Below the pieces are notes generated by a model. The model saw only the letters and a list, made by a program, of their open reading frames with translations, did no database searches and was not told the origin of the DNA. Of a stretch of DNA of 46,007 nt, positions 10,488 through 28,707 are shown piece after piece. Positions within the stretch are counted from its first letter, which is position 1. Every line of letters begins with the position of its first letter. Source of the DNA: Planctomycetales bacterium 4572_13 (GTDB taxonomy: Bacteria; Planctomycetota; Phycisphaerae; Sedimentisphaerales; Anaerohalosphaeraceae); assembly GCA_002084585.1 (NCBI GenBank), contig NBLM01000008.1, positions 1-46,007 of the forward strand, in the 5' to 3' direction. The translations under genes were made by a program, and so were the position numbers.

Positions 10488-10542
10488 GGTTGTTTAAAAT
10501 TGGGTTTGTTTTGCGTTTTTTTGTTTTACCAAGCAGTGCGGG

Positions 10543-11031
10543 TTATTCCTCGATGCGGAAGGTGATGTTTTGGAGGCCGAGCGCGTAGAGTACATCATAG
10601 ACCTTGACGACGATGTCCCATGATATGGCATCGTCATAGTACAACTCGACCGGGAGCGGGCCGGTTGTTTCCAATTCCTGCTGGACTTTTCGGGCCAGAA
10701 CCAGTAGTGATTCCTGCGGGTTTTCATCGGAGAGTTTGATCGCGGGACGATTTTCTATTCGAAGCAGGCAACCAGAGGGACTTGGCTCTACGAAAACCTT
10801 CAAGAGAAAGTCCTGTATAACAGCGGTTTGGGGAGATATTTTTCCCACGATCACAGGCAATAGCTGTTCGGGTTCCTGGAATTTGGCCGTCATGACAAAA
10901 AAGGTCAGAAGCAGAAAGATCACATCGATCATCGGCGTCATGCGAAGACCCATCGATAGACGACGCTTTCGCCCGATGAAGCCGGTCATCACCGTTTGAT
11001 GAAAACTTGATGTGTGCTGTTCGCTGGTCAT
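10543..11031 (-). CDS. ExbD/TolR-like biopolymer transport protein
   Basis: MGLRMTPMIDVIFLLLTFFVMTAKF TM motif and C-terminal ExbD fold. Confidence 0.85.
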   Translation of the reverse strand: MTSEQHTSSFHQTVMTGFIGRKRRLSMGLRMTPMIDVIFLLLTFFVMTAKFQEPEQLLPVIVGKISPQTAVIQDFLLKVFVEPSPSGCLLRIENRPAIKLSDENPQESLLVLARKVQQELETTGPLPVELYYDDAISWDIVVKVYDVLYALGLQNITFRIEE

Positions 11032-11056
11032 ATTCTTTCACAATCAGGCAATATCC

Positions 11057-11116
11057 GTAAGAGTTCACGCTTTAGCGTACAATGCCGAAAGGCCAAGCTA
11101 AAGCTTGAACTCTTAC
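11057..11116. repeat. Long stem-loop repeat (20-bp arms) with inner GCC-GAAA-GGC tetraloop hairpin
   Basis: GTAAGAGTTCACGCTTTAGC...GCTAAAGCTTGAACTCTTAC, 19/20 complementary. Confidence 0.85.
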
Positions 11117-11134
11117 AAAAGCCCGGAACTATGT

Positions 11135-11698
11135 TCATCTGACCGGTTGCATGCAGCGGCTGCGTTCGGCGCCGGTGTGCAGGGCTTCTAAGTTAATTTC
11201 GACCAGTTTGGGGTTTTTGCTTGAGAACAGGTCTTTAATGGCTTGTTCAATACTGCTCATCGAAAGTAAATTCGTGTGTTCGATGAACGCACCCACAGAG
11301 ACAATATTGGCTACTCTAAGGTTGCCAACTTTCTGGGCGATCTGCGTAGCGTCCACTTTAATACACTTGAGGTCCGTTCGCTGAGGTCCGCGTTTGATCA
11401 TTGAGGTGTTCATCAGGACCAGACCATCTTTTCCAATTTGTGGCTCAAAACGATCCAATGACGGCTGGTTCAGGATAATCGCCATATCCGGATGCGCCAC
11501 AAAGGGATTGAATATCTCACCATCGCTGATGACCACTGTCGCGTTCGCTGTTCCGCCCCGCATCTCGGCACCATAGGAGACCATACCAACGACATTCTTC
11601 TCTTCAATGACAGCCGCCCGCGCAATGACATTGCCTATCAGAACAATACCCTGGCCGCCAAAGCCGGCAATGATGATCCTCGTTTCGTGTCTGTCCAT
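11135..11698 (-). CDS. 2-oxoacid:ferredoxin oxidoreductase gamma subunit
   Basis: IIIAGFGGQGIVLIGNVIARAA; GAEMRGGTANATV. Confidence 0.93.
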   Translation of the reverse strand: MDRHETRIIIAGFGGQGIVLIGNVIARAAVIEEKNVVGMVSYGAEMRGGTANATVVISDGEIFNPFVAHPDMAIILNQPSLDRFEPQIGKDGLVLMNTSMIKRGPQRTDLKCIKVDATQIAQKVGNLRVANIVSVGAFIEHTNLLSMSSIEQAIKDLFSSKNPKLVEINLEALHTGAERSRCMQPVR

Positions 11699-12432
11699 TA
11701 ACCCTTGTCCTTATAAACGCCCAGCGGAAATGCCTCTTTCATCTCGTTGTTGACAAAATCAACCGATTGCGCCGTGGACAGCTTCCAGTCCGTCGGGCAC
11801 ATCGAAAGTACTTCAACCAGCGAAAAGCCCTTGCCGTCGATCTGATTTTGGAAGGCCTTTTTGATCGCCCGTTTGGCCGCATTGACATCTTTGGGCGTAC
11901 TGACGGCGGTTCGCTCAAGATAACAGACACCGTCAAGGGATCTTAGCAATTCGCACACCTTTAGCGGCGGGCCTTCGCCATGTTTACCCCGGCCGTCTTG
12001 AGAGGTCGTGCTGCGCATTCCGGTCAGCGTGGTCGGCGCCATCTGGCCACCGGTCATCCCGTAAATGGCATTATTGATGAAAATCACGGTAATATTTTCA
12101 CCCCGATTGGCGGCGTGAATCGTTTCGGCCGTTCCAATCGCCGCCAAATCACCATCACCCTGATAAGTGAAAACAATTTTGTCCGGCTGAACGCGTTTGA
12201 TCCCGGTGGCCATCGCAGGCGGTCTTCCGTGGGCGCACTCGGTCATATCGCAATTGAAATAATCATACATAAGGACGGCACAACCCACCGGAGCGATTGC
12301 GATTGTTCTTTCACGAATGCCCAATTCCTCGATCACCTCGGCGACGAGACGATGGGCAATGCCGTGGCCGCACCCCGGGCAGTAATGCGTGCGGACATCG
12401 GTCAGGACTTCGGTTCGTTTCAGTGTCGGCAT
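11698..12432 (-). CDS. 2-oxoacid:ferredoxin oxidoreductase beta (TPP-binding) subunit
   Basis: HYCPGCGHG, GDGDLAAIG..N..VIFINNAIYGMTGGQ TPP motif. Confidence 0.95.
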   Translation of the reverse strand: MPTLKRTEVLTDVRTHYCPGCGHGIAHRLVAEVIEELGIRERTIAIAPVGCAVLMYDYFNCDMTECAHGRPPAMATGIKRVQPDKIVFTYQGDGDLAAIGTAETIHAANRGENITVIFINNAIYGMTGGQMAPTTLTGMRSTTSQDGRGKHGEGPPLKVCELLRSLDGVCYLERTAVSTPKDVNAAKRAIKKAFQNQIDGKGFSLVEVLSMCPTDWKLSTAQSVDFVNNEMKEAFPLGVYKDKG

Positions 12433-12433
12433 A

Positions 12434-13513
12434 TTATAAGTTCCCCTTTGCGGTTGCAGCGGCCATGGATTCTATCTTTTCGAGGATGAGTTCTTCGGTC
12501 GGATACCAACCGCCGCCTTTACCGAGAAACTCGACCGGACAGGCGCCATTAACAGCTAACTTCACATCTTCGATAAACTGGCCGTGGCTCATTTCAACAG
12601 TCAGTATTTGCCCGGTAGTTTGGGCCGCCGTTGCAAATGCATCGCTGGGGAACGGCCAGAGCGTGATCGGGCGGATCAGACCGACCGCGATCCCTTTCTT
12701 TCGGGCCAGAGAAACGGCGCCCTTGGCAATACGGGCGGTAATCCCATAGGCCGCGATAACAATATCAGCGTCCGCTGTTTGGTATTCTTCATAAAGTGAA
12801 AGCTCGTTTTCGATGCGTTTGTATTTTTCCTGCAAGTGTTCATTGTGCGTTACCAAACCGTCGGTCGGTTTGAGTACCAATGTCTTAACAACGCGCGGCT
12901 TGCGACCGGCGCATCCATCGAGGATATAATCCTTAGCGGGCAGATCAACAATTGGTTTATAGGGAAAAATCTCCACGGGTTCGGCCATCTGGCCGGAAAT
13001 GCCATCTCCCAGCAGCATCACCGGATTGCGGTAGTAATCGGCCCAGTCAAATGCGTTCATCGTCAGGTTATAAATTTCCTGCACCGAGGCCGGAGCCAAA
13101 ACGATCACACGATAATCGCCGTGTCCGCCGCCTTTGACGGCCTGAAAATAGTCGGCCTGCGACGCCCGGATATTCCCCAGACCGGGACCGCCGCGTTGGA
13201 CATTGGCAATCAGACATGGAAGTTCGGCGCCAGCGATATAACTGATACCCTCCTGCTTGAGCGATATACCGGGAGAGGACGAACTGGTCATACAACGCAC
13301 CCCGGAAGCCGACGCACCAAAGACCATATTGATCGCAGCCAGTTCGCTTTCGGCCTGAACAAAAACACCGTCCACCTGCGGCATCCGTTTGGACATATAT
13401 TCGGGAACCTCATTTTGCGGCGTGATCGGGTAGCCGGCAAAAAAACGACACCCCGCCTGCACCGCCGCCTCGCACATGACTTCATTTCCCTTGAGCAGTA
13501 TTTTTTTACCCAT
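12434..13513 (-). CDS. vorB: 2-oxoacid:ferredoxin oxidoreductase alpha subunit (VorB-like)
   Basis: GNEVMCEAAVQAGCRFFAGYPITPQNEV; TSSSSPGISLKQEGISY. Confidence 0.9.
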   Translation of the reverse strand: MGKKILLKGNEVMCEAAVQAGCRFFAGYPITPQNEVPEYMSKRMPQVDGVFVQAESELAAINMVFGASASGVRCMTSSSSPGISLKQEGISYIAGAELPCLIANVQRGGPGLGNIRASQADYFQAVKGGGHGDYRVIVLAPASVQEIYNLTMNAFDWADYYRNPVMLLGDGISGQMAEPVEIFPYKPIVDLPAKDYILDGCAGRKPRVVKTLVLKPTDGLVTHNEHLQEKYKRIENELSLYEEYQTADADIVIAAYGITARIAKGAVSLARKKGIAVGLIRPITLWPFPSDAFATAAQTTGQILTVEMSHGQFIEDVKLAVNGACPVEFLGKGGGWYPTEELILEKIESMAAATAKGNL

Positions 13514-13539
13514 ATTCCACTTCCCTGCATCGAATTTAT

Positions 13540-13613
13540 AACCATGAAGAACAGGAAGGACATGAAGAAAAAATAATTAAAAAAACTTCACGCTCTTCAG
13601 TTTCTTCATGGTT
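13540..13613. repeat. Inverted repeat AACCATGAAGAA...TTCTTCATGGTT in the vorB-ferredoxin gap
   Basis: 12-bp perfect arms enclosing CATGAAG-type phrases. Confidence 0.7.
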
Positions 13614-13625
13614 AAAAAAACCGTG

Positions 13626-13877
13626 TTATTTGGCCAAATCCGTGGTTTCTTTTTTATCTGAGATTTTGACACCGTCTTTGTCCACTTCGATCGCGCAATC
13701 TGGACACATCCGAAAACACAGCCCGCACGCCGTACACCGGTCCGGGTCGCTAACCTGGGGATAGGAAAACCCCTGATCATTGAGTTCGTCGGACAGGCGA
13801 AGTATCTTCTGCGGGCAAAACAAGACACACATCCCGCACCCCTTACAGCGATGCTTATCAAAGTGAACTTTATTCAT
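13626..13877 (-). CDS. 4Fe-4S ferredoxin (delta-type) subunit
   Basis: CKGCGMCVLFCP and CTACGLCFRMCPDCAIEV. Confidence 0.93.
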   Translation of the reverse strand: MNKVHFDKHRCKGCGMCVLFCPQKILRLSDELNDQGFSYPQVSDPDRCTACGLCFRMCPDCAIEVDKDGVKISDKKETTDLAK

Positions 13878-13937
13878 CTTGTACCTTACAGTAATACTTT
13901 ATTGACACTTTTATCATACGGGCAACGGCGTTTCGGG

Positions 13938-15095
13938 TCAACCCAATTTGTTAAAAGACACATCCCAGTCTTTCCAGACGGCTTCGTAGCCGTGAGAGCG
14001 GATCATGCGGGCGACTTCTTCCGGGCTTCGGCTGTCGGCGACTTCAAACTGTTCGGCGGCTTCGGTTTCGCTGGCATAGCCGCCGGGATTGGTTTTTGAG
14101 CCGGCGCTGAGACGGGTTACGCACAGGTTTATCAGATTGTCCCGAAATTCGGGCGTTTCTCGTGTGGAGAGTACAATTCCCGCATCCGAAAAGCACAATC
14201 GCAGGGCGAGCATCATCTGCACCATATCTGTATCCGAAACCAAGTGCGGCCACTCGGATTGGACATTGGTCGCCGGACAAATACGGGGGAATGAAAAGGA
14301 TATTTGACTGCGCCAGTATTTTTTTATCAGATACGATGCGTGTTCGGCCAAGGCCAGTGTTTCGATTCGCCAATTGGTCAATCCAAGCAAAAAACCCAAC
14401 CCAATCCGCCGCATTCCGGCGGACGCAAACCGATCCGGGGCGTCAAGACGGCTGTCATAATCGGCTTTGGGACCGGCAGGATGATAATCGGCATAGACAT
14501 CCCGGTCATAGGTTTCCTGATAGAGTGTTACGCCATCGATACCCGCATTGAAAAGCTGCGCGTATTCATCCTGACTCATCGCGTAAATCTCAATCGACAG
14601 CGATGAAAATTGCTGGCGCAGTTTCCCGGCCAACTCGCATAAATAGTCCGGCGACACAAATTTCGTATCCTCACCGCTGACCAGCAGTAAATGCCGAAAG
14701 CCCTCGCCGGCAATCACAGCGGCGTCGGAAACGGCCTGCTCGATAGTCAACCGGGTTCGCTCAATTTGAGTTGTTTGGTTATATCCGCAATACCGGCAAC
14801 TGTTGATACAGACATTTGATACATAGAGCGGAGCATACAGTTGGATGGTTTTTCCAAATCGCTGAATGGTTAAAGCGTGCGCCTGTTGCGCCATCGTTTC
14901 AAGAAACGGCTCGGCCGCGGGTGAAAGGAGCGTTACCAACCGAGCCAAAGAAAATTTGCCCGCGGGATTTGATAGTTCCCGTTTGACCTGATCGGCGGTT
15001 ATGGCTTGTAAACGCTCCGCCCAAGACGCTCGATTATTATCAAGCTGTTTTTCGGCAAGAATGGATTGCATATTTGCACTTACTATCGTCGTCAT
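13938..15095 (-). CDS. thiH: 2-iminoacetate synthase ThiH (radical SAM)
   Basis: CINSCRYCGYN radical SAM motif; adjacent to thiG. Confidence 0.95.
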   Translation of the reverse strand: MTTIVSANMQSILAEKQLDNNRASWAERLQAITADQVKRELSNPAGKFSLARLVTLLSPAAEPFLETMAQQAHALTIQRFGKTIQLYAPLYVSNVCINSCRYCGYNQTTQIERTRLTIEQAVSDAAVIAGEGFRHLLLVSGEDTKFVSPDYLCELAGKLRQQFSSLSIEIYAMSQDEYAQLFNAGIDGVTLYQETYDRDVYADYHPAGPKADYDSRLDAPDRFASAGMRRIGLGFLLGLTNWRIETLALAEHASYLIKKYWRSQISFSFPRICPATNVQSEWPHLVSDTDMVQMMLALRLCFSDAGIVLSTRETPEFRDNLINLCVTRLSAGSKTNPGGYASETEAAEQFEVADSRSPEEVARMIRSHGYEAVWKDWDVSFNKLG

Positions 15096-15100
15096 CTTTC

Positions 15101-15183
15101 GCCCCTTTGGGGCTTTAGAGATTTCCTGTTCGCAACACCGGACGCTTACGCATCCGGCTAACTATCTTTCGGGCCTTCAGCCC
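15101..15183 (+). repeat. Three-hairpin repeat module, copy 1 (thiG-thiH gap)
   Basis: GCCCCTTTGGGGC, CCGGACGCTTACGCATCCGG-CTA, GGGCCTTCAGCCC. Confidence 0.75.
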
Positions 15184-15185
15184 TG

Positions 15186-15980
15186 TCAATTCCGCAAAAA
15201 TCCAGTTAGGGGGCTGGAGGCGTTAGCGGTATTGCTTCTTGGGGCCAAGCCGGTTTCGTAGGCGATGCGTCCGGCTTCGGTGGCCATTTTGAATGCTTTG
15301 GCCATCTGTGCCGGGTCGCTGGCGGCGGCAATCGCGGTATTGACCAGCACCGCATCAGCACCCATTTCCATCGCTTCGACGGCATGGGACGGAGCGCCCA
15401 AACCCGCATCGACCACGACCGGAACCGTTGCCTGTTCGATAATGATCTCAATGGAAGCCTTTGTCTTGATTCCCTGATTGGAGCCAATCGGGCTAGCCAG
15501 CGGCATCACGGTCACACAGCCGATGTCCTGTAATTTTTTGGCGAGAATCGGATCCGCATTGATATAGGGCAGCACAATAAAGCCGTCTTTGACCAGTATC
15601 TCTGCGGCTTTTAATGTCTCTTGCCCGTCCGGCAGGAGATAATATGGATCAGGGGTTACTTCCAGCTTGACCCATGCAATTCCACTGGCGGCCCGTGCCA
15701 GACGGGACAAACGAACCGCTTCGTTTGCATCCCTCGCACCGGAGGTATTGGGCAGCAACTGGTACTTCGTTTGGTCAATCGCCGCGAGCATGTCATCGTT
15801 TTCATTTTCAATATCGACCCGGCGCAATGCGACCGTTACCATCTGCGATCCCGATGCGGCAATGGCGCGAGCCATCAGCGCATTGGACGCAAATTTCCCC
15901 GTACCGACAAACAGTCGGGAATCGAATTCCTTACCTGCAATTTTGCCCCCTTGGGGCTTCTTAGCAGAAAGAATAATCAT
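15186..15980 (-). CDS. thiG: Thiazole synthase ThiG
   Basis: [49 protein letters not shown]. Confidence 0.96.
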
Positions 15981-16024
15981 TTCCGGATGCTCACGCCTCC
16001 GGCTAATTCACTTACGGCCCTTCG
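15945..16024 (+). repeat. Three-hairpin repeat module, copy 2 (thiS-thiG gap, overlapping the thiG 5' end)
   Basis: GCCCCCTTGGGGC, CCGGATGCTCACGCCTCCGG-CTA, GGCCCTTCGGGCC with spacing like copy 1. Confidence 0.75.
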
Positions 16025-16092
16025 GGCCTAAATTTTTGTGATCGTGTCGCTACCGCTCCACGCTTTTGCGTCGGCAGGATGCCGGCGTTATA

Positions 16093-16305
16093 TTATCCGC
16101 CGCCGACGAAGCGGATGAGTTCAATGGCCATTTGGTCTTTCAGTTCGGTCTGCGCAAAGTTTTTTCGCTCAACAATGTCGCCGTTAATTTCGGCGACCAC
16201 CGTAGCGGCGTTGATCTCTAATTGGGCCAACAGCTCAGTCAGCGTTGACGGCAGGCCCTGGTCAAAAGTTTTTTCGGTTCCGTTTATTTTTAATGTCGCA
16301 TTCAT
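16093..16305 (-). CDS. thiS: Sulfur carrier protein ThiS
   Basis: 70 aa, ending ELIRFVGGG (C-terminal GG). Confidence 0.93.
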   Translation of the reverse strand: MNATLKINGTEKTFDQGLPSTLTELLAQLEINAATVVAEINGDIVERKNFAQTELKDQMAIELIRFVGGG

Positions 16306-16319
16306 GGATTTTTTGTTTC

Positions 16320-16931
16320 CTATTCTCGGTTTTTATCGTGCGAAATGCCCGCGTTCCCAATCAACACCTCGGCTATGGCGTTGGCCTGATGATAGGCGGC
16401 GACACCCACACGCGGCGCCGTCAGCGGCACTCCGGGGCCGGCGCCGGACACTGTATCACCGACCAGTATCAGCCGATCCGAAATACGGCGAGTAACAATC
16501 TCGTTACTACGGCCATAACCGGCCAGACCACTCACCGATACTACGACAACGCCTTTGGTCTTTGACAAAACCGTCTCAACCAGCATCTGTTTTTGATCGG
16601 CACGGTCAAAGCATTCGGCAATCACATCACACCCATCGAAAAGCGTCAAAATCTTCTCCGGTGTCAGGCGGACTTTGTGTCCTTCTAAATCCGCTTCGGG
16701 ATTGATTCGACGCAGATTTGTTAACGACGCATCGACCTTGTGCTGTCCGATCTGATCGGGAAAATAGTTCTGGCGATTCAAATTGCTCTCTTCGACGGCA
16801 TCAAAGTCCGCCAAAATCAGCTTGCCGACCTTGAGCCGTGTCAGCGACACCGCCACATTAGACCCCAAACCACCCAGGCCCGCAATGCCAACGACAGCAC
16901 TCTTTAACTCGTGAAATATCTGCGGCATCAT
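16320..16931 (-). CDS. thiF: Sulfur carrier adenylyltransferase ThiF-like
   Basis: VGIAGLGGLGSNVAVSLTRL, DFDAVEESNLNRQNYF; adjacent to thiS. Confidence 0.93.
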   Translation of the reverse strand: MMPQIFHELKSAVVGIAGLGGLGSNVAVSLTRLKVGKLILADFDAVEESNLNRQNYFPDQIGQHKVDASLTNLRRINPEADLEGHKVRLTPEKILTLFDGCDVIAECFDRADQKQMLVETVLSKTKGVVVVSVSGLAGYGRSNEIVTRRISDRLILVGDTVSGAGPGVPLTAPRVGVAAYHQANAIAEVLIGNAGISHDKNRE

Positions 16932-16957
16932 ATTTTTGCCTCAACTGCTTAAGCATC

Positions 16958-16982
16958 CACGGCCAAGCAGAGCTTGACCGTG
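16958..16982. repeat. Hairpin CACGGCCAAGC-AGA-GCTTGACCGTG in the thiF leader
   Basis: 11-bp stem with one mismatch on + (G-U pair on the minus-strand RNA). Confidence 0.8.
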
Positions 16983-17072
16983 CCACCCGTCGGGGGTTTC
17001 ACCCTAGGCTATTGTATATAAAAAGCCCACGCCATTAAACATCAATGAACAGGGGCACAATTATCTATTTTT

Positions 17073-17180
17073 GTGCCTCCCTTCGCCGGAATTAACCGGA
17101 TCAGGTTCAAAGGGTCATGCGGGCAAGATGCCGCTCAACTCTCAGCTTAGGGCCTTTTGACCCATCGCTCCCCTGACACC
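17073..17180 (-). promoter_or_regulatory. TPP riboswitch (THI element) upstream of thiFSGH
   Basis: Minus strand: GGTGTCAGGGGAGC...CTGAGAG...ACCCTTTGAACCTGATCCGGTTAATTCCGGCGAAGGGAGGCAC. Confidence 0.97.
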
Positions 17181-17385
17181 AAACGCTGTACGACCCATCT
17201 TAGAAGGGGGTCGATAAAATGCAAGAAGTTTAGGCAAAAAACAATTGTTTACGCAAAAAAGCAACCTATAAAGCGGGGACATGTCGCTCAAATGTGGATG
17301 TATCGCAGATTTTTTTTGTTCTGATCCAGTTTTTTTTCAACCTGCCTCTATTTTTTGAGTTAGATTTTCTCTATAATCACCCTCT

Positions 17386-18298
17386 ATGACTGATGTACTC
17401 TATCGAATTATTGACGCCAATTTCAATCGCGGGCGCGAGGCCCTGCGGGTGATGGAGGAATACTGCCGCTTTGGACTGAACCACCCCGCCCTCTCGGCGC
17501 AGGCCAACCGCGGCCAAACGAGCCAGCGAGGCATTGCGGGCACTGGCCGAATCGATACAAACCATTGACCCTGCCATTTCGGCCGCCATGGAAAAAATCC
17601 GCTTTGAGGTATATGCCCTTGAGAAAAAGTGCGTTCTTTACGCCTGTTCAAAGCATCAACTCGAATCCGTCCGTCTGTATGTTTTGATCAACGCAACGGC
17701 CCAAACGGACGAACACAAAGTGCTGGACCTGGCGAAAACCTGCATCGACAACGGGGCCGACTGTTTGCAGTTACGGGCCAAAGAATTCTGTGATTCGTCC
17801 CTTCTGGACCTGGCACGGAAATTCACCGCTCTGTGTAAAGAGGCCGGAGCTGTCAGCATCATCAACGACCGGGCCGACATCGCCATACTTTCGGACGCGG
17901 ACGGTGTGCATCTTGGACAGAACGAAATCGGTGTCTCTTGCGTGAGGCAACTTGCCAAACGCCCTCTTATCATTGGTGTCAGCACGCACACTCTCGATGA
18001 ACTCAGTGCCGCGATTGATTCCGGCTGTGATTATGTCGGCATCGGTCCGGCGTTTGCCAGTCCAACAAAGCCAAAGCTCAACCTCGCGGGCATCGGTTAC
18101 ATCCGGCAGGCACTGGCTGTTCTTGAACAAACGGGGATCTTCCATGTCGCTATCGGGGGGATTCATTCACAAAATATACCCGTACTGTTGGATATCGGAG
18201 TCAGGGCCGTTGCCGTCAGTTCAGCCCTGACGCATTCAGGAAATCCCGCCGAGAGCTGTAACACCTTAAAAAACACGCTCTTAAACTCGGAACAATGA
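17386..18298 (+). pseudogene. thiE: ThiD2-ThiE thiamine-phosphate synthase, frameshifted into two ORFs (17386-17568; 17534-18298)
   Basis: N-terminal RIIDANFNRGREALRVMEEYCRF (ThiD2-like) in frame 1; rest plus ThiE domain (QLRAKEF, IINDRADIA, DGVHLGQ) in frame 2; a 10-bp near-duplication lies at the break. Confidence 0.85.
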
Positions 18299-18771
18299 AG
18301 TTATTCGCCAAGTTATCACCAACATTTGAACAGGCCCGACGGTGTTTCTGTAACTAAGAACAAATGCTACAGAAAACAAGTAGACAAATCAACCGATTTG
18401 TACATATTTAGCTGAGGAACAAGCCGCCGCCTCATAACCTCATTGTTTGCAATAATTTAAAAACATATTACGCCATAAAGAACAGAGTCAATCTCTGCAT
18501 GCCCTGCAAAAAACCTCTTTCAAAAGAGATTCTCAAGACCTCTGTCGTCCTTAATTATTCTCTAAGACTGAGTTTTTAACAAATTACCCACAATCCGAGA
18601 CGGCTGTAATGGATGACTCGTGAAATTATTTTCAAAATAGCAGGATCGTGCCAAAAAAAAAAGATTTATAGTGTTATAAAGGCCTGGCTTTCCCTATAAT
18701 TCGGGTGTCATTTTGGATGATTTAAGTGATTAACTCGCTCTATAACCAGTGGATTTCAGGAGACAAAAAAT

Positions 18772-21213
18772 ATGTCGCACCGCCTCAACGATTGCTTAAA
18801 CAGCGGAGAATTCGCCGTTACCGCAGAATTAACAGGTAGCCCCGGATATAATTTTTCTCCCATCGAGAAATTTCTGTCGGCTCATCAGGAAAAGAAAGCT
18901 GCCGTCCCCGGCGGATTTTCTTTTGTCGGGATCACGGTTCCCCAAAATCCCGGCGGTGTCGCTAATATCGATCCTTCAGATGTGCTGGCCGTGATCGAAA
19001 AAAAGAACCTTCTCGGTGATCTGGACTACATCCCGCACCTGAGTTGTAAAGACAACAATGTCGATAGCTTGACCAGTACCCTCGTGGGATACCGGCAACG
19101 ACATATTGAGTCCGTTCTGGCCTTAACCGGTGATAAACCGATCACTTCTCAAGGTGTCTTTGAAGTGGAAAGCATCGGGCTTTTATCACTGATCGGCCAA
19201 TTAAATCATCAATCCATCACCAAAGCCAAGCCCGGCCAGTGGGATCAGGTCCACCAATTCTACGCCGGAGCCGCCGTGTCGCCGTTTAAGTACACCGAAG
19301 CATCGCTGATGCAGCAGTATTACAAAATGGAAAAAAAGATTGCCGAAGGCGCACGGTTTTTGGTTACCCAGGTCGGCTGGGACTGGAAAAAATCACTGGA
19401 ACTGGCTCGCTATTGCAAAGACAACAACATCACAACACCGCTGGTCGGGAATGTGTATTGGTTGACGACCAAAACACCCGCGCCCCGGCTGATGCATGAT
19501 ATTAAACTGCCCGGCTGTTTTGTCAGCGATGACCTGCTGGCCAAATTGCAGGCCGAAACGGTGGATGAACACATCGAGCGGGCGGCTCAACAAGTCGCGA
19601 TGTATCAATCGATGGGCTATGCGGGCGTTGATATCGGCGGCGTGCATGATTACGATGTGTTCCTGAAGATACTCAATCGGGCCACTGAAATTGGCGATGG
19701 TTGGGAGCAATACAAGGACAATCTGTATTGGCCGGCGGAGAAACCCTTCTATCTCTATGATGAGGCGGGCAGGCAGGTTTCGCTTTCTAAACCGAAACGC
19801 AAATGCAACGAGCGATTCTTTGATTTTATGCACCGGGCCATTCTGGATTCGGATTACAAGGGCTTTCATTGTCTCAAATGGGTGCTGAAACTGTTTCGGG
19901 TCAACAAGGAGAGCGGGTTCACCTACAAAGCATTTAATGCCATTGAAAAGAGCTTTAAGTATTGTGCTTTTGACTGCGCCGAATGCGGCGATTGTTACTT
20001 GCCGGAAAACTTTGGATACTGTACAATCGGCGGCTGTGAAAAAGGGATGGACAACGCACCGTGCGGCGACTCGACCGTTGACGGCTACTGCGGCAATAAC
20101 TTAGAACGGCTTTGCATCGGTGAGCGGATTTATGATTCCGCCGCGGCTAAAACCGACGGACGCGAAAAACTGCGAACGATGCTCAACAAGCCGCGCATTG
20201 CGGCGTTGGAACATACCAGCTCGATTGTGAACTACTTATTTGGAAAGGATCATACGATGACAACACCGCTGATCGGGATTGGCGAATCGATTCACGCTTC
20301 AATCCCCAAAACCGGTAAAATAATGAAAGAGCTGCATGATCTGGGAGCGGATGCCTACACGAAAGAAAGCGGGCCTCTGAACTATATCCGCGCACTCGTC
20401 GAAGAGCAGGCCGATGACGACGCTGCTTACATCGCGGTCAATCTGGATGCCTTTGGTGAAAGCGACCCGCAGCAGGCCGTTGGTATGATGGTTGACTACA
20501 CAAAACTCGTTCGCCAATGGAGCAAGGGTGTGCCGATCTGTATTGACAGCAGTAATGACGATGTCCTCATCGCGGGATTGAAAGAATGGTATAACACCGA
20601 TGAAGTCGTTAAGCCGCCGCTGCTGAATTCGATTAAGACCCACACCACAGATAAAATGATGGCGTTGAAGAAGACCTATGACTTCTCATTTATCGGCCTG
20701 CTGGTCAGTGAAGATAAAGCGACCGGCCCGGGGGGTTCGCACTCAGTGGAGGAGTTGTTCGGACTCGCCAAGGAAATCTTCGACAAAGCGATGCAGTATG
20801 GATTTAAGCCCGAAGAAATTTACTTTGACTCGACCGTGTTCCCGATCGCCATCGACATGCCGATGGAACCGGGCGTGCCGGGCTATACCTATCGGGCGTT
20901 TGAGACGATCAAAAAAATCAAGACCGACCCACAAATGAAAAATTGTCATTGTTCACTGGGGCTCAGCAACTCCTGCCGGGACCTGCCCGGACGACGGATC
21001 GGTATCGCCAGAGCATATACCGCCAAGGCGATGGAGTACGGGTTAGATGCGGGAATCGTCAATGTCACACACCGCTTCGGCGAAAAACCAGCAGACCCGG
21101 GATTGGTCGAACTGGTGGATGCCTATGCCAAACTGGACGGCAATATGGACAACCTGACGGTCGCAATGGAACGGATGGGCCAATTCTGCCAATCCTGCAA
21201 AAAACCGAGTTAG
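18772..21213 (+). CDS. Fusion: methylenetetrahydrofolate reductase + MetV-like Cys-rich domain + AcsE/MtrH-like methyl-THF methyltransferase
   Basis: MetF-like N-terminus (AVTAELTG..., LALTGDKP); Cys-rich CAFDCAECGDCYL...CTIGGCEKGMDNAPCG; pterin-binding domain IGESIHASIP...ICIDSSNDDV...SLGLSNSC. Confidence 0.85.
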   Translation: MSHRLNDCLNSGEFAVTAELTGSPGYNFSPIEKFLSAHQEKKAAVPGGFSFVGITVPQNPGGVANIDPSDVLAVIEKKNLLGDLDYIPHLSCKDNNVDSLTSTLVGYRQRHIESVLALTGDKPITSQGVFEVESIGLLSLIGQLNHQSITKAKPGQWDQVHQFYAGAAVSPFKYTEASLMQQYYKMEKKIAEGARFLVTQVGWDWKKSLELARYCKDNNITTPLVGNVYWLTTKTPAPRLMHDIKLPGCFVSDDLLAKLQAETVDEHIERAAQQVAMYQSMGYAGVDIGGVHDYDVFLKILNRATEIGDGWEQYKDNLYWPAEKPFYLYDEAGRQVSLSKPKRKCNERFFDFMHRAILDSDYKGFHCLKWVLKLFRVNKESGFTYKAFNAIEKSFKYCAFDCAECGDCYLPENFGYCTIGGCEKGMDNAPCGDSTVDGYCGNNLERLCIGERIYDSAAAKTDGREKLRTMLNKPRIAALEHTSSIVNYLFGKDHTMTTPLIGIGESIHASIPKTGKIMKELHDLGADAYTKESGPLNYIRALVEEQADDDAAYIAVNLDAFGESDPQQAVGMMVDYTKLVRQWSKGVPICIDSSNDDVLIAGLKEWYNTDEVVKPPLLNSIKTHTTDKMMALKKTYDFSFIGLLVSEDKATGPGGSHSVEELFGLAKEIFDKAMQYGFKPEEIYFDSTVFPIAIDMPMEPGVPGYTYRAFETIKKIKTDPQMKNCHCSLGLSNSCRDLPGRRIGIARAYTAKAMEYGLDAGIVNVTHRFGEKPADPGLVELVDAYAKLDGNMDNLTVAMERMGQFCQSCKKPS

Positions 21214-21239
21214 TTTTCAATTTTGAGTTTTGCGTTAGA

Positions 21240-21264
21240 GCGGCCCTCAGGGGCCGCTTTTTTT
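21240..21264 (+). terminator. Rho-independent terminator
   Basis: GCGGCCC-TCAG-GGGCCGC followed by TTTTTTT. Confidence 0.93.
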
Positions 21265-21367
21265 GTGACGCGATTGTTTTGTTGACAAGTTGGATTTAGT
21301 GTGATAGATTTTATCTTAATAGTGGAGTCTCAAGGGAAGGTTTTTTTAGCATTTAGGAGACAGAAAG

Positions 21368-21829
21368 ATGGATCAGAATATGGACCACCCAAACCCGACC
21401 GATGAAAATCAGCCGCAACCAAACACCCCGCAGGAATCACAACTGGCTACAGAACAACCCCAAACCCCGCCGCAACCAGCAGTACAACCAGCCCCTGAAG
21501 TAATAGCTGTTTCGCAGGACTCTAAAAACATGGGGATGCTGTGCCATTTGTTGGCAATTTTTACCGTGTTTTTCTGTCCCCTGCTTATATGGCTCATCAA
21601 AAAGGATGAGGATAAGTTTGTAGACAGCCAAGGCAAGGAAGCTCTAAATTTCCAAATTACTGTAATGTTAGCAATGATTGCGTCTTGGATACTTATGCCC
21701 GTCCTTATCGGCATCTTCCTTTTCTTCGCAACAATCATTTGCAATATTGTTTTTTGTATTTTAGCTTCTGTCGCTGCCAGCAAAGGAAAAGATTACCGGT
21801 ATCCGGTCAGCATTCGACTGGTTAAGTAG
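21368..21829 (+). CDS. DUF4870-like membrane protein
   Basis: Pro/Gln-rich N-terminus then MGMLCHLLAIFTVFFCPLLIWLIKKDEDKFVDSQGKEALNFQ. Confidence 0.8.
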   Translation: MDQNMDHPNPTDENQPQPNTPQESQLATEQPQTPPQPAVQPAPEVIAVSQDSKNMGMLCHLLAIFTVFFCPLLIWLIKKDEDKFVDSQGKEALNFQITVMLAMIASWILMPVLIGIFLFFATIICNIVFCILASVAASKGKDYRYPVSIRLVK

Positions 21830-21867
21830 CCAAAAAAACTGAGGGCAGGACAATTATTAAGGAAAAT

Positions 21868-22509
21868 ATGATGAACCAAAGAGGCCCAGTAGAACCTATA
21901 TCGAAAGCATTTTATTTTGGTATTTATCTCGGAGGCGCCATTTTGGGTGGAATCCTGATGGCTATTGCAATGTTTGCCATTATCGGTGGAACCGCCGCAT
22001 CAGAAAGTGGAGATTTTGATCCCGCAGCAGGCGGAGCCATTGCTGGTGCGGGAGTTCTTGTGTTACTTTTAGCCATTGCATGTCTTTTAGCAAGTAGTAT
22101 CGTTTTGTTTGTGTTGTATTACAAAATGTGGAATGCTATTCAGGATGGATATGCTCGCACGACCCCCGGCAAGGCGGTTGGCTTTATGTTTATCCCATTC
22201 TTTAACATCTACTGGATGTTCCAGGCAATCTGGGGGTACTCCAAAGATTACAATGAATTCCTCAGACGACATGCTATTGCGGCAAAACCATTATCCGAAG
22301 GGCTTTTTCTTGCCGCCTGTATCGTTCCTTGCTTAGGAATAATCCCGTTTGTGGGCTGGCTGGCAAGTATCGCCAATCTCGTCATATTTATTATCATCGT
22401 AAACGCCATTTGCGACTCCATTAATGCTCTGGCGTATATACAACCGCAGGCGGCAATTTTAGAGCCGGAATATGATGCACAGCAGGAGTTGCCGCATCAG
22501 GAAATGTAA
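21868..22509 (+). CDS. Hypothetical multi-TM membrane protein
   Basis: Several TM helices; GKAVGFMFIPFFNIYWMFQAIWGYSKDYNEF. Confidence 0.7.
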   Translation: MMNQRGPVEPISKAFYFGIYLGGAILGGILMAIAMFAIIGGTAASESGDFDPAAGGAIAGAGVLVLLLAIACLLASSIVLFVLYYKMWNAIQDGYARTTPGKAVGFMFIPFFNIYWMFQAIWGYSKDYNEFLRRHAIAAKPLSEGLFLAACIVPCLGIIPFVGWLASIANLVIFIIIVNAICDSINALAYIQPQAAILEPEYDAQQELPHQEM

Positions 22510-22526
22510 AAGGGACGGAATGAAAT

Positions 22527-23783
22527 ATGAAAAAGAAGAAAAAAATTAAGCGGCGTCAGCGGCCTGTTTGCGGGTTGTGCGGCAACCGCGGTAAACTAAC
22601 AAAAACAGAATGCTGCGGACAGTGGATTTGCGACGATGAGGACCAATATGTAGCTTTTTCTTATGCACGCAACAGTTGTCATCGCAATCACCGCCGCTAC
22701 ACCCTGTGCGGCTATCATGACGCCGAAGGGCATAAAGGCGACTGGAAAGATTGCAAACAATGCAGGGAAGATTTTTCTGACGATCTGGAAATGTATGTCG
22801 AGTATGGGACGAACGAGTACAACTTTGAAAAGCTCCCAAACCCGCCGTCGTTTGAGCCGACATATTGCAGCAAGTGCGGTGAACTCATTGTAAAAGCCAA
22901 CGGCGGCTATTCCGTCCGAAATGGTGTCTATACATGCAATAAATGCGACAGCGGACCACTTGAGCAACTAAACAAGTTCAACCCGCTGGCCGACCTTGAC
23001 CTTGACGATTGGGACGATGATGATGAAGATTGGGATGATGATTTTGAAGATTTTGACGATGACCGATCGGAGCGGCTTAGTTTTGGTAATGTTGAGGATA
23101 TTGCACCAAGCATTCGCCCCAGATTTGATGACATCTCGCTTCTGATTACCCAGTTTTGTGCCGATAGGGAAGCGGTTGTACTTGCTCTGCTGTGTATGGA
23201 TATGAATGTTACACTTTGTGTAGAATTTCCGCAAGTTATCCGCAAATGTAAAGCGGAAAGCTGGGCGTGCGGTATTATCCACGCTCTTGGTATAGTCAAT
23301 TTTCTGTCCGACCCTGAATCCGATCCACATATCAAAAGCTCCGAAATTTATCCGTTTTTCAAAGTCTCACAGGGAACGATGCAGTCCAAGTCATTAAAAA
23401 TCAGGGAGTTGCTTTGCACGGGTCCAATGGACCCAATGTGGTCATTGCCGGATATGCTGTTGAAAGACCCTATGCTGTGGTTCGTTCCAATGGATGGAAT
23501 GATGATCGACATCAGAGATGCCGCACCGGAAATACAGCAGAAGGCACTGGATGATGGACTTATCCCCATACTTCCTGACGAAATGAAACGACAAATCGAC
23601 GAACAAAAGGAAATAATGGAAGAAGCCGCTCGTTCGATGATTTCAGGGATGCCCAAAACCCTTCCTTCAAAATCCAGCGGCCAAAAAACAAACATCAAAA
23701 TCGCCGATTATCTGCCGGACGACTCAAAGCATTCGACACCACCGGAAAAACTACCACTGTTTGACCCGCCTGAAAAAGAGTGA
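22527..23783 (+). CDS. Hypothetical zinc-ribbon protein with Asp-rich linker
   Basis: CGLCGN..CCGQWICD, CSKCGELI..CNKC; DLDLDDWDDDDEDWDDDFEDFDDD. Confidence 0.7.
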   Translation: MKKKKKIKRRQRPVCGLCGNRGKLTKTECCGQWICDDEDQYVAFSYARNSCHRNHRRYTLCGYHDAEGHKGDWKDCKQCREDFSDDLEMYVEYGTNEYNFEKLPNPPSFEPTYCSKCGELIVKANGGYSVRNGVYTCNKCDSGPLEQLNKFNPLADLDLDDWDDDDEDWDDDFEDFDDDRSERLSFGNVEDIAPSIRPRFDDISLLITQFCADREAVVLALLCMDMNVTLCVEFPQVIRKCKAESWACGIIHALGIVNFLSDPESDPHIKSSEIYPFFKVSQGTMQSKSLKIRELLCTGPMDPMWSLPDMLLKDPMLWFVPMDGMMIDIRDAAPEIQQKALDDGLIPILPDEMKRQIDEQKEIMEEAARSMISGMPKTLPSKSSGQKTNIKIADYLPDDSKHSTPPEKLPLFDPPEKE

Positions 23784-23837
23784 GGAACATTCACTGATCA
23801 ATCTCATAAGTTCTTGATAATCCGGCTTTAGGTTGCT

Positions 23838-24326
23838 ATGATGCCGCCAATGGCAAAGGGTAAAAGTGTAAAATCTGATGTGAATCCGGTCATCAAGAAC
23901 AAAAAGGCCTATCATAATTTTGAACTGGTCGAGAAGATCGAGGCAGGGATTTCACTGCTTGGAACCGAGGTCAAGAGCTTGCGGAACAAGCACTGCGACC
24001 TGGATGCCTGCTACGGGCGGATCATCGGCGATGAGGTGTGGCTGGTGGGTTGCAAGATCGCCCAATACGACCGCGGCGGCTATACCAACCATGACCCCCT
24101 GCGGAAACGAAAACTGCTGCTGCATAAATCCCAGATCAAGAAAATCCGCACCAAACTGGAACAGCGGGGGTTTACGCTGGTCCCGACAAAGATTTACTTT
24201 AACTCGCGGGGCATTGCCAAGGTACAACTGGCTCTGGCAACGGGCAAAAAACAGTATGATAAACGCGCCAAAATGATCGATCAACAGCAGAAAAGAGACC
24301 TCAGCCGGAGCATGAAACGATACTGA
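23838..24326 (+). CDS. smpB: SsrA-binding protein SmpB
   Basis: NKKAYHNFELVEKIEAGISLLGTEVKSLR...KRAKMIDQQQKRDLSRSMKRY. Confidence 0.96.
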   Translation: MMPPMAKGKSVKSDVNPVIKNKKAYHNFELVEKIEAGISLLGTEVKSLRNKHCDLDACYGRIIGDEVWLVGCKIAQYDRGGYTNHDPLRKRKLLLHKSQIKKIRTKLEQRGFTLVPTKIYFNSRGIAKVQLALATGKKQYDKRAKMIDQQQKRDLSRSMKRY

Positions 24327-24425
24327 GGGGAATTCTAAATCCGAAACAAATACAAAAAATATAAAATCCTAAACGAATTCTTAAAAATAGTTGGTTTTTG
24401 CATCTGAACTCAGGAGAGTAAAAAA

Positions 24426-24809
24426 ATGGCAGACGACAAAAAGAAAATTATTGTTGATGAGGATTGGAAAGAGCAGGCCCAAAAGGAAAAAGAGGAACTG
24501 AAAGAAAAAGAAAAGGTCGAACACGAAAAAGAGCCGCAACCCCGGCCGCAAATGCCGGAGGCAAATTTTTCGGGGCTGGTCAGTATGCTGGCAACACAGG
24601 CCTTTTATGCACTGGGCTTGATCCGGCCCGAAGGGGACGAGGACAAGAAAGTTGAGCCGGATTGGGATGTCGCGAAATTTAATATCGATATGCTGGGGAT
24701 GCTGGAAGAAAAATGCAAAGGCAATCTGACCGACGAAGAGGCCGGTCTGATCAAATCCTCGTTGGATCAATTGCGAATGCTGTTTGTCCAACTTTCAAAG
24801 AAGGATTGA
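24426..24809 (+). CDS. DUF1844-family protein
   Basis: FSGLVSMLATQAFYALGLI...FNIDMLGMLEEKCKGNLTDEE. Confidence 0.75.
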   Translation: MADDKKKIIVDEDWKEQAQKEKEELKEKEKVEHEKEPQPRPQMPEANFSGLVSMLATQAFYALGLIRPEGDEDKKVEPDWDVAKFNIDMLGMLEEKCKGNLTDEEAGLIKSSLDQLRMLFVQLSKKD

Positions 24810-24813
24810 GCTT

Positions 24814-25629
24814 GTGGCGAGTATTCTTGACAAGATCATCGCGGACAAATGCATTGAGGTTGCCCGCTGTAAAGAACAGCGACCGATTGAACTACTGAAA
24901 GAGCGGATATGCGGACTGAAAAAATGCCGTAACTTTTATGCCGCGGTCAGTAAGCCGAACCCGCGCGGGCTAAATGTCATCGCCGAGGTCAAAAAGGCCT
25001 CGCCCTCGGCGGGGCTGATCCGGGCGGATTTTGATCCCGTGCAGATTGCCAAAACCTACGCCCAATGCGGGGCGGACGCGATCAGTGTATTGACCGATGA
25101 GACATATTTTCAGGGCAAGCTGGACTATCTGACCGCTGTTAAAGAGGCGGTAAGTATTCCTGTTTTGCGAAAAGACTTTATCGTTGATGTGTATCAGATT
25201 TATGAAGCCCGCGCCGCTGGAGCGGATGCGGTCTTGCTGATCGCCGAGGCACTCAAACCCGCAGCGTTGATGGACCTGCTGATATTGGCTAATGAGTTGA
25301 CGCTAACCGCCCTGATCGAGGTTCACGGTGCCGATTCGCTCCTACAGATGCGAAGTCTGATCGGGTTTCCGCAAAAAAATTACAGCGTTCTGGGCATTAA
25401 CAACCGCGATTTAACGACGATGCAGGTGGACATCAATAACACCGCCCGGCTGGCAGAGCTGGTTGACGACCGAAAAGAACTGATCGCCGAAAGCGGCATT
25501 AAAACCCGCGACGATGTCGAAAAATTAATTCGCGTTGGTGTCGGCGGCGTCCTGATCGGACAGACGCTGTGCGAAAGCGAACGCATCGAGGATAAATTCA
25601 ACGAACTGTTCAACCCGGGCGGCCATTAA
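24814..25629 (+). CDS. trpC: Indole-3-glycerol phosphate synthase
   Basis: VIAEVKKASPSAGLIRADFDP, ISVLTDETYFQGKL, LGINNRDL; GTG start. Confidence 0.95.
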   Translation: MASILDKIIADKCIEVARCKEQRPIELLKERICGLKKCRNFYAAVSKPNPRGLNVIAEVKKASPSAGLIRADFDPVQIAKTYAQCGADAISVLTDETYFQGKLDYLTAVKEAVSIPVLRKDFIVDVYQIYEARAAGADAVLLIAEALKPAALMDLLILANELTLTALIEVHGADSLLQMRSLIGFPQKNYSVLGINNRDLTTMQVDINNTARLAELVDDRKELIAESGIKTRDDVEKLIRVGVGGVLIGQTLCESERIEDKFNELFNPGGH

Positions 25630-25631
25630 TC

Positions 25632-26438
25632 GTGGATGTCGCTATTCTTATCATCATCGGTTTAGGCATGGGGGTTATTGGCGGAATGCTGGGTATCGGC
25701 GGCGCTGTGTTTCTCATCCCGGCGTTGACTTTTACGCTCGGTGAAAATCAACATCTGTATCAGGCCGCGGCGATGATTTGCATTTTCTTCGTTTCCGGCT
25801 CTGCTTTGATCGCACACCGTAAAGCCAAAGCTATCTCCAAAGAGGTTCTGATCCGTCTGATTCCGGCGGCGATGCTGGGCATCGTTGGCGGGGTCGCACT
25901 GAGCAATTGCTCATTCTTTGAAGGGGACAGGGACTATCTCCTCGCCCGACTGTTCGGAGGGTTTCTTGTGTATGTGGCATTTTACAACGCCCTTCGCCTG
26001 TATCGCAGTATGAAACAGCACCGGAATCTGGAACGGGATGAGCCGCTACAACGACCGAAAACCGTTCCCGCCGCTTTGTGTGGACTGGCAACAGGGTTAG
26101 CTTCCGGCTTGCTGGGGATCGGGGCCGGAACCGTCTCAACACCGCTGCAGCAGTTCTCCCTGAAACGCCCGTTGCGGGAGGCGATGAGTAATTCAGCGGC
26201 GGCCATCGTCAGCATCTCCTGGCTGGGCGCGATCTACAAAAACGCCACACTGGCCCAACACGGAATCGGTGTTACCGAATCGCTCAGAATCGCCGTCTGC
26301 ATCATCCCCGGCGCGATCATCGGTGGCTACATCGGCGGACACCTTATGCACGCCCTGCCGAAAAACATCGTCCGGGCGGTCTTTATCGCCGTCTGCATCA
26401 TCGCCGCCGTCAAACTGCTGACGGTCTCGCCGAGTTGA
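25632..26438 (+). CDS. TauE/SafE-family permease
   Basis: GMGVIGGMLGIGGAVFLIPAL and second repeat GLATGLASGLLGIGAGTVSTPL. Confidence 0.9.
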   Translation: MDVAILIIIGLGMGVIGGMLGIGGAVFLIPALTFTLGENQHLYQAAAMICIFFVSGSALIAHRKAKAISKEVLIRLIPAAMLGIVGGVALSNCSFFEGDRDYLLARLFGGFLVYVAFYNALRLYRSMKQHRNLERDEPLQRPKTVPAALCGLATGLASGLLGIGAGTVSTPLQQFSLKRPLREAMSNSAAAIVSISWLGAIYKNATLAQHGIGVTESLRIAVCIIPGAIIGGYIGGHLMHALPKNIVRAVFIAVCIIAAVKLLTVSPS

Positions 26439-26635
26439 CCGTTTTAGATTAACGCACGAGACGCAAAATCCACAAAATTACACTGCCCTTTCAGGGCGAA
26501 ACCTTTTCGTTTCCTTGGGCTATGTTAGGCCGGCCTTTCAGGCCGCTATCTACATAAATCCAAGGATACCAACCAAGATTTCCAAGCGGTATCATCGGGC
26601 TTACTTGCGCCGCCTCGCTTTTCTGTCCGGCGTTA

Positions 26636-27136
26636 TTACTCCATCACTTTGAGAGACAGAATTTCGACCGGTTCGGCGGGGACATCGTCGTGGTGGCCGG
26701 CGCGGGTAGTTTTAACTTCGGCGATGGCATCGACAATGTCCATTCCATCGGTTACTTTGCCGAAAACGGCATAGCCGATCTGCGACGGCGACGGGCCGGT
26801 GTAGTTGAGGAAATCGTTGTCGGCATGATTGATGAAGAACTGGTTGGTTGCACTGTCCGGATCACCGGTGCGGGCCATGGCCAGTGTGCCGCGGTCGTTC
26901 TTGAGACCGTTGGCCGCCTCGTTGATGATCGGGGCATTATTGGACTTGGAATTCATCGTTTTGTCCATGCCGCCGCCCTGAACCATAAAGCCCTTGATGA
27001 CGCGATGAAAGATCGTGCCGTCATAAGTCCCGTTGTCCGCGTATTCCAGAAAGTTTTTCACTGTTACCGGCGCCGCTTCGGCATCCAGTTCGATGGTCAT
27101 ATCGCCCAGGGTCGTTTTCATTTGAAGTGTTGTCAT
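26636..27136 (-). CDS. Peptidyl-prolyl cis-trans isomerase (cyclophilin)
   Basis: [31 protein letters not shown]. Confidence 0.95.
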
Positions 27137-27151
27137 AATTTCTCCGTGTTT

Positions 27152-27910
27152 CTAATCGTTATCATTCTTGTCATATTCGCAGTCATGGACATCTTTGTCA
27201 TGACCCTTATGTTCATCGTGTCCTTCGTTGTGGTTTTCGCACCTCGGAACCTTGATCACAGTTACCAATTTGATCGTAACCGGTTCGACCGGTACTGTCC
27301 CATGGGAGCCGACTTTTCTGGTGGGAACGGCCGCAATTGCATCGACCACATCCATCCCTTTGACGACCTTTCCGAATACGGCATAGCCGGGTTTGCTTTT
27401 GCTGCCATTTAGGAAGGCGTTGTCTTTGTGATTGATAAAAAACTGGCTGGTGGCGCTGTCGGGGTCATTCGTTCGAGCCATGGCGAGGGTTCCGCGATTA
27501 TTGCGGAGCCCATTGTCGGATTCATTCTTGATCGGTGGTTTCGTCTCTTTCTTCTGCATATCGGAAGTAAAGCCGCCGCCCTGGATCATAAAATCCTTGA
27601 TCACGCGGTGGAAGATCGTTCCATTGTAGAAATCGGACTCAGCATATTTCAGGAAATTGGCCACCGACATCGGGGCCTTGTCCACGAACAATTCGATTTG
27701 AATCTCACCCTTGTTCGTTACCATTTTAACGACCGGATTGGGAGTTTCTTGCTCCTGTTCGGCAATGGGCGTCTCTTTGACCTCGGCTTTATTGGGGTCT
27801 GCCGCATTGGGATCGGCCGGGATCTTATCTTCTGCCCGGGCAACTGACATAAAAGACACCAAACAACTCAAGGCCAAAATCAATCGCATCTGCTTCATAA
27901 TAACCTCCAC
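27152..27910 (-). CDS. Exported cyclophilin with His/Asp-rich C-terminal tail
   Basis: Signal peptide; [14 protein letters not shown]; tail [29 protein letters not shown]. Confidence 0.93.
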
Positions 27911-27981
27911 TTTAATGTTTCGTCTGATTTACTGAACACCAATAGTGTACAGAAATTCCGGTATAATGTCAAAGGTGAGAC

Positions 27982-28704
27982 TTATTTTTTAGGACGGGTT
28001 ATCGTAAATATTATAAATGTCAGAGGGATCGCCGAGGCCATCCCAAACAGCGCCGCGACCACCTCAGGCCAATCAAACGGGCGGTCAAAAAGCGGGGTTG
28101 TCGCTTTGATCACAATCAGCAACGCTATCGGTGCGGCCAGCGATCGCATCAGCCATGAGCCGAGTCCGATGTGCCAGTTTCCGCGGCGAGCGATGTACCG
28201 AATCCAGATCAGTGTAAAGGCAGTATAGGCGGTGAAATGGAACAGCGTGTCCAAATAGTACTCTGGATACAATGACAGTAGATTTGACATATTGGAAATG
28301 ATGAAAATAAAAACAGCGGATACGGTCAACAAGGCCGACCAAAAACCCAGCATTGATAACACCCCAAGCCCCAGCGCCACACCAAACAGGTTCGCCATAA
28401 AATCCATCACATCCGCCGACCGGCCAACGCGCGACTGTAAATATTCATCGATGACGCCATACCAAACAACCGCAACCAGAACCAGCCAGACTTTTGAACG
28501 GTTCCAACGGACTTTGTGATAGGGACTGACGGCGAACCAAACCAGAAAGGTTAATGCGAAATAAGCCAGGACATGCATGGTTTTGTCGCTCATGCCGCTT
28601 TGCCGCGCAACATCCGGGACGGGGATATGGGTCAGCCAGAAGATGAGCGGCCAGTAAATCCCCAGCACGAGTAAAACGGTCTTATGCCGTCGTAATAGTT
28701 TCAT
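27982..28704 (-). CDS. VanZ-like membrane protein
   Basis: DKTMHVLAYFALTFLVWF...YGVIDEYLQSRVGRSADVMDFMANLFG. Confidence 0.8.
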   Translation of the reverse strand: MKLLRRHKTVLLVLGIYWPLIFWLTHIPVPDVARQSGMSDKTMHVLAYFALTFLVWFAVSPYHKVRWNRSKVWLVLVAVVWYGVIDEYLQSRVGRSADVMDFMANLFGVALGLGVLSMLGFWSALLTVSAVFIFIISNMSNLLSLYPEYYLDTLFHFTAYTAFTLIWIRYIARRGNWHIGLGSWLMRSLAAPIALLIVIKATTPLFDRPFDWPEVVAALFGMASAIPLTFIIFTITRPKK

Positions 28705-28707
28705 CGT

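Follow-up and report, generated by a model that had tools for sequence, protein, structure and literature searches.

A three-domain reductase-methyltransferase fusion shared by most Sedimentisphaerales and its probable role in a split methionine synthase

The methionine synthase of Phaeobacter inhibens is split, and its three modules, together with RamA-like and DUF1638 reactivation proteins, are genetically required for methionine (PMC5764234). In Ruegeria, the modules of such a split synthase serve both methionine synthesis and betaine demethylation (PMC12478193). The stretch of DNA analysed here (46,007 nucleotides, hereafter the window) is part of a 1.81-Mb bin of 119 contigs that is 83% complete, and it carries a gene in which a folate module is fused to the domains of a methylenetetrahydrofolate reductase (MTHFR). 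We suggest that the product is probably the folate half of a split methionine synthase joined to a MetVF-type reductase. This reading builds on the domains, their conservation, the co-occurrence of genes, rare operon links and a separate decay of the two halves, from which we infer both activities, the partner proteins, the direction of flux and any channelling.

Domains and surroundings of the fusion gene

The gene is an uninterrupted ORF from an ATG at 18772 to a stop codon that ends at 21213, with zero internal stops, which agrees with the 813-aa ORF given in the initial annotation. That annotation had also placed MetF-like, Cys-rich MetV-like and pterin-binding methyltransferase domains in one polypeptide, and all three were recovered by Pfam above the gathering cut-offs: PF02219 at residues 6-276 (E 3e-15), PF12225/DUF5981 at residues 387-461 (E 3.8e-12) and PF00809 at residues 543-764 (E 7e-8). 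The features are as follows.

18758..18762, + strand: ribosome-binding site AGGAG, 9 nt 5' of the ATG (sequence)
18772..21213, + strand: fusion gene, 813 aa, MTHFR, MetV-type Fe-S domain and methyl-THF:corrinoid methyltransferase (ORF, Pfam, order-wide conservation)
18787..19599, + strand: MTHFR (MetF-like) barrel, residues 6-276, with E19 and D121 invariant (PF02219, conservation, structure match)
19930..20154, + strand: MetV-type (DUF5981) domain, residues 387-461 (PF12225; cysteines invariant in 37/37)
20155..20253, + strand: linker, residues 462-494, helices (secondary structure of the model; remnant in locus L165)
20254..21210, + strand: pterin-binding methyltransferase domain, residues 495-813 (PF00809, AcsE structures 2yci and 2e7f, MetH/AcsE fold match)
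20398-21063, + strand: PF00809 core, residues 543-764

Sequence matches in the PDB were MTHFRs for the N-terminal part of the fusion, and for the C-terminal part AcsE-type methyltransferases (2yci, 2e7f) came first and MetH after. An AlphaFold model, for which a 37-row alignment was the input, had a mean pLDDT of 85.9 and a pTM of 0.87. In Foldseek comparisons its N-terminal end resembled the MTHFRs of Thermus and E. coli (TM about 0.7), and its C-terminal end resembled the folate domains of MetH as well as AcsE (TM by target up to about 0.8). The catalytic Glu (E19) and the flavin-site Asp (D121) of MTHFR were identical in 37/37 aligned proteins. The same was true of eight cysteines in the MetV-type domain (402, 405, 408, 417, 422, 431, 440 and 448), which are predicted to be sufficient for two [4Fe-4S] clusters. 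In the methyltransferase domain, the pterin-site residues are D592, N619, D686 and N733. Compared with the single chain of MetH, which has homocysteine, folate, B12 and activation modules, the fusion has the folate module only, as judged by Pfam. We rejected an artefact of chance or assembly, considering the full-length homologous ORFs with identities down to 49% and the invariance of E19, D121 and the eight cysteines in 37/37 proteins.

In the window, the fusion gene lies outside any operon with its proposed partners. A thiE-like gene (+ strand) is upstream and is the most conserved neighbour, and DUF4870-like, smpB and trpC genes are downstream. These neighbours are conserved in position but uninformative, and an assignment of function from the operon context was rejected. 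The initial annotation had remarked that other pathway genes were missing, and indeed none was found among the ORFs of 10000-30000. Neither a SAM nor a cobalamin riboswitch was found near the fusion; the only riboswitch there was a TPP riboswitch for thi genes. It lies at 17061-17184, with thiG, thiH and a thiF-like gene at 13938-17184 (- strand). A four-gene cluster resembling 2-oxoacid:ferredoxin oxidoreductase is located at 11135-13877 (- strand) and is a possible source of reduced ferredoxin.

Distribution and the question of acetyl-CoA synthase

The named relatives with the fusion are bins of Planctomycetota/Phycisphaerae/Sedimentisphaerales, and most relatives of the window genome are metagenome bins. 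We recovered 93 full-length homologous ORFs among the fetched loci, some of which are duplicates of one contig. A MetV domain was located inside a long fusion ORF in 80 of the 118 genomes of the order, although contig ends truncate some of these ORFs. Close homologues of the methyltransferase domain were found in 110 of the 118. In 30 of these 110 genomes the methyltransferase was found only as a free protein of ~320 aa, or the fusion was not demonstrated. In L164 (7950-16845, - strand), a metF-metV-hdrB-hdrC-mvhD-hdrA-like cluster, which is a type IV MTHFR arrangement, is followed directly 3' by a free methyltransferase gene. The fusion is no one-off: most members of this order of anaerobic, planctomycete-type bacteria have it. 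Across 294 sampled genomes of the phylum, proteins with all three domains were confined to the window's order; two fusion loci, L059 and L085, are from records titled Kiritimatiellales, as judged by the record titles only. Elsewhere among the planctomycetes there are MetF-MetV proteins that usually measure about 540-600 aa and share 33-37% identity with the fusion, and in two loci (L167 and L168) an AcsE-like gene adjoins the MetF-MetV gene. The initial annotation had stated that its reading would fall if many identical fusions were already described. Such fusions turned out to be numerous, but no published description was found in the open-licence literature.

It was also proposed in the initial annotation that the C-terminal domain is AcsE-like and that the protein belongs to the methyl branch of the Wood-Ljungdahl pathway. 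If so, the fusion would feed the corrinoid iron-sulfur protein and acetyl-CoA synthase (ACS). The catalytic domains belong to the right families, and 10 ACS-positive genomes carry a fusion. One fusion of the divergent group (L089) shares its operon with genes for Fhs, AcsE and an AcsD-like protein, and another (L235) is only a few kb from ACS genes. However, both of these fusions, in G321 (contig of L089) and G336 (L235), are without some of the pterin-site residues. CdhC/AcsB (PF03598), the single marker by which the presence of ACS was scored, was absent from 10/10 sampled genomes of the window's genus, including those that are 99% and 96% complete. In the whole order it was found in 29 of the 118 genomes and was absent from 89. 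The fusion was present in 70 of the 89 ACS-lacking genomes and in only 10 of the 29 ACS-positive ones (p 2e-5; because related genomes are not independent, this and the other p values of genome co-occurrence are a guide only), whereas the free form of the methyltransferase was enriched in ACS-positive genomes. When all forms were counted, the methyltransferase domain was independent of ACS (27/29 ACS-positive vs 83/89 ACS-lacking genomes, p 1.0).

The ACS-positive relatives normally carry a separate and distinct AcsE within the ACS operon. These operons (L216-L219, L234) contain AcsB, AcsC, a RACo protein, CooC, AcsD and AcsE, and in many cases Fhs, FolD, MetV or MetF as well, the genes being named by sequence and gene order, with a family search for some only. 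In a tree of 41 PF00809 domains, the fusion and free proteins formed a clade of 23 rows (support 100/99), apart from the AcsE clade of 7 rows (100/99) and the MetH clade of 5 rows (98/99). With AcsE models the fusion scored 83 against 259 bits and 54 against 370 bits, far under the NCBIfam cut-offs. The name AcsE is not supported for this domain. A function in the Wood-Ljungdahl pathway is very unlikely for the fusion and has been largely disproved for the genus of the window, in which we rejected it in view of the absent CdhC/AcsB, the enrichment of the fusion in ACS-lacking genomes, the separate clade and the AcsE found elsewhere in ACS-positive relatives.

Partner proteins and separate decay of the two halves

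Candidates for the other parts of a split methionine synthase are encoded elsewhere in the window's own genome. They are a corrinoid protein of 208 aa with PF02607 and PF02310 (G000:C80, L150:9042-9668), a PF02574 homocysteine methyltransferase of 300 aa (G000:C73, L151:8621-9523) and a RamA-like DUF4445 activase (G000:C59, L233:4521-6329). The best PDB match of the homocysteine methyltransferase was T. maritima MetH (E 5e-48); the GGCC motif lines up between the two. In the order, the corrinoid-domain (cap domain) family was present in 115, PF02574 in 111 and the RACo/RamA C-terminal domain in 104 of the 118 genomes. Full-length MetH with its activation domain was found in 3/118 and full-length MetE in 12/118, and four further genomes appear to have a two-gene MetH. 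In two loci of this last type (L207 and L208), a homocysteine methyltransferase of ~300 aa is followed by a separate folate/B12/activation protein, which is about 815 aa in L208 and is truncated in L207, where the contig ends.

In 99 genomes neither MetH nor MetE was recognised; the methyltransferase domain occurs in 94 of these, and the complete set of four parts in 79. The three genomes with full-length MetH are all without RamA, and two of them are without the methyltransferase domain (p 0.006 with all forms counted, again as a guide). This exclusion is partial, because one of the three keeps the domain, and we rejected a clean mutual exclusion. The domain is likewise kept in MetE-bearing genomes and in three genomes with split MetH. 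PF02574 was lacking in seven genomes, five of which (G321, G324, G333, G337 and G341) are ACS-positive and have the methyltransferase domain. PF02574, MetH and MetE were not found in these five, and therefore methionine is not the only role of the domain there.

Gene order links the parts in a few relatives, rarely but consistently; the operon of L059 described below, which unites the fusion with corrinoid, RACo and DUF1638 genes, is one such link. The corrinoid gene is immediately upstream of a free methyltransferase in L158, and the order is corrinoid-Fhs-fusion in L155. Fhs (formate-THF ligase) was recognised by family search in the neighbour cluster of L155, L036 and L059. In L156 and L157, a free methyltransferase adjoins a gene for a bifunctional homocysteine methyltransferase/MTHFR (Hcy-MT/MTHFR) of the PRK08645/YitJ type.

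We propose that the MTHFR barrel would reduce methylene-THF to methyl-THF, with electrons that arrive via the MetV-type Fe-S domain and its two expected [4Fe-4S] clusters; NAD(P)H would not be expected as the direct donor. The C-terminal barrel would then use methyl-THF to methylate the cob(I)alamin bound by a separate MtgC/MtbC-type corrinoid protein of ~208 aa, which the RamA-like activase would keep reduced, and the MetH-like homocysteine methyltransferase would form methionine. The fusion would be bifunctional, with catalysis in both barrels and with the reductase joined to the module that uses its product. It is plausible, as the initial annotation had suggested, that the fusion passes the carbon of methylene-THF to a corrinoid.

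The same enzymes might work in the reverse direction. Methylated compounds would supply a corrinoid protein, the C-terminal domain would transfer the methyl group to THF as in MtvA/MtgA, and the MTHFR half would oxidise methyl-THF to methylene-THF for energy or C1 units. One operon points to this.

6914-18432 of L059: FolD, fusion, Fhs, corrinoid protein, RACo, DUF1638, MtaA/CmuA-like (URO-D) methyltransferase with a thioredoxin domain, CobW

The corrinoid genes of L174 and L176 also adjoin URO-D methyltransferase-like genes and PocR-like regulators, the corrinoid protein comes closest to NCBIfam models of methylamine/betaine types, and the double use of the modules in Ruegeria is a precedent. 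However, substrate methyltransferases of the MttB family were found in only 32/118 genomes, whereas almost every genome has the fusion or its methyltransferase domain, and in most genomes the neighbours of the corrinoid gene are no substrate methyltransferases. In the window's genus, MttB, the one type of substrate methyltransferase covered by the genome-wide search, was found in 0/10 genomes. We consider methyl oxidation unlikely as the main function of the fusion, while it is a possible role in some genomes.

The condition of the pterin site bears on whether the C-terminal domain is catalytic at all. The four pterin-site residues are intact in the window protein and in 66/66 close fusions, and also in 28/28 free proteins inspected, two of which are true AcsE/MtgA-type proteins. 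Among the fusions with less than 60% identity in the methyltransferase domain, 13 of 15 have lost at least one of these residues (L235, L237-L242, L236, L166, L082, L084, L087 and L093). The losses affect one or more of N619, D686 and N733, and D592 is replaced in one protein. All divergent fusions keep E19, D121 and the eight cysteines. Such proteins would fit an MTHFR of ordinary folate metabolism, whose C-terminal domain is merely structural or regulatory, and a second MTHFR in the window's genus, an Hcy-MT/MTHFR protein of 620 aa, may be counted on the same side. We regard this explanation as very unlikely, because the window protein and its close relatives retain the whole site, and intact free methyltransferases survive the loss of the N-terminal half.

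Degenerate fusions tend to occur together with ACS. Of those with known ACS state, 6 of 9 are in ACS-positive genomes, compared to 4 of 71 other fusion genomes, most of which were counted without a residue-by-residue check (p 5e-5, with the same reservation). A free copy is also present in 7/9 of these genomes, and a second, closer fusion in one. The opposite loss was observed in an ACS-positive genome (G222:C52, L165, about 9260-9515, - strand), where a fossil of the fusion is just before the free methyltransferase gene. It comprises residues 1-36, a frame change and then residues 466-512; some 430 codons of MTHFR-MetV have been deleted, leaving a remnant of the linker. This genome kept the free methyltransferase despite its own AcsE and MetVF (L217). 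These sequences are most simply read as showing two active enzymes whose uses can be separated: the reductase half would be dispensable in the presence of MetVF, and the methyltransferase half in the presence of another methyltransferase. Both halves are intact in the window protein.

To return to methionine, a broader proposal, for which we see about an even chance, is that the order as a whole uses a methionine synthase whose folate-demethylating module is covalently attached to the reductase, with methylene-THF converted to methyl-corrinoid on one Fe-S polypeptide. The decay of each half where a Wood-Ljungdahl enzyme (MetVF or AcsE) can substitute would then be a natural experiment, showing the methyl branch in the service of methionine without acetyl-CoA synthase. 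If true, this would explain methionine synthesis in a large, mostly uncultured anaerobic group that is mostly without MetH and MetE, and the known split methionine synthases would gain a member with a fused reductase-transferase. It would also be a caution that a set of MetF-, MetV- and AcsE-like domains is no proof of the Wood-Ljungdahl pathway unless acetyl-CoA synthase is checked. Whether such a two-barrel Fe-S enzyme channels its substrate could be tested directly.

Comparison with known systems

The split methionine synthase of Phaeobacter inhibens and MtgCDE of Ruegeria pomeroyi likewise consist of separate PF00809, PF02607/PF02310 and PF02574 proteins (PMC5764234, PMC12478193), with a RamA-like DUF4445 activase and no MetH activation domain. 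DUF1638 is also shared with the Phaeobacter system at L059, the sole locus examined for it. In contrast, the PF00809 part is fused here to MTHFR and a MetV domain, and the planctomycete set is order-wide in Planctomycetota and is known from sequence alone, whereas that of Phaeobacter is known by genetics.

The MetVF-type (type II) methylenetetrahydrofolate reductase of acetogens has the same MetF barrel and MetV-type Cys-rich domain (PMC8760232), and by this likeness flavin and two [4Fe-4S] clusters may be expected in the fusion also. Unlike the acetogen enzyme, the fusion is one chain with an added methyltransferase, and only the C-terminal MetV domain is recognisable in it. With AcsE/MeTr, the methyl-THF:corrinoid iron-sulfur protein methyltransferase (2yci, 2e7f), it has the fold, the type of reaction and the pterin-site residues in common, but its clade and its set of partners differ, and the genus is without ACS. 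The Hcy-MT/MTHFR of the PRK08645/YitJ type also combines MTHFR with one module of methionine synthase; that module is the homocysteine one, and MetV and PF00809 are lacking. The two-domain MetF-MetV proteins of other planctomycetes share the N-terminal two-thirds of the fusion, whereas their methyltransferase is unfused.
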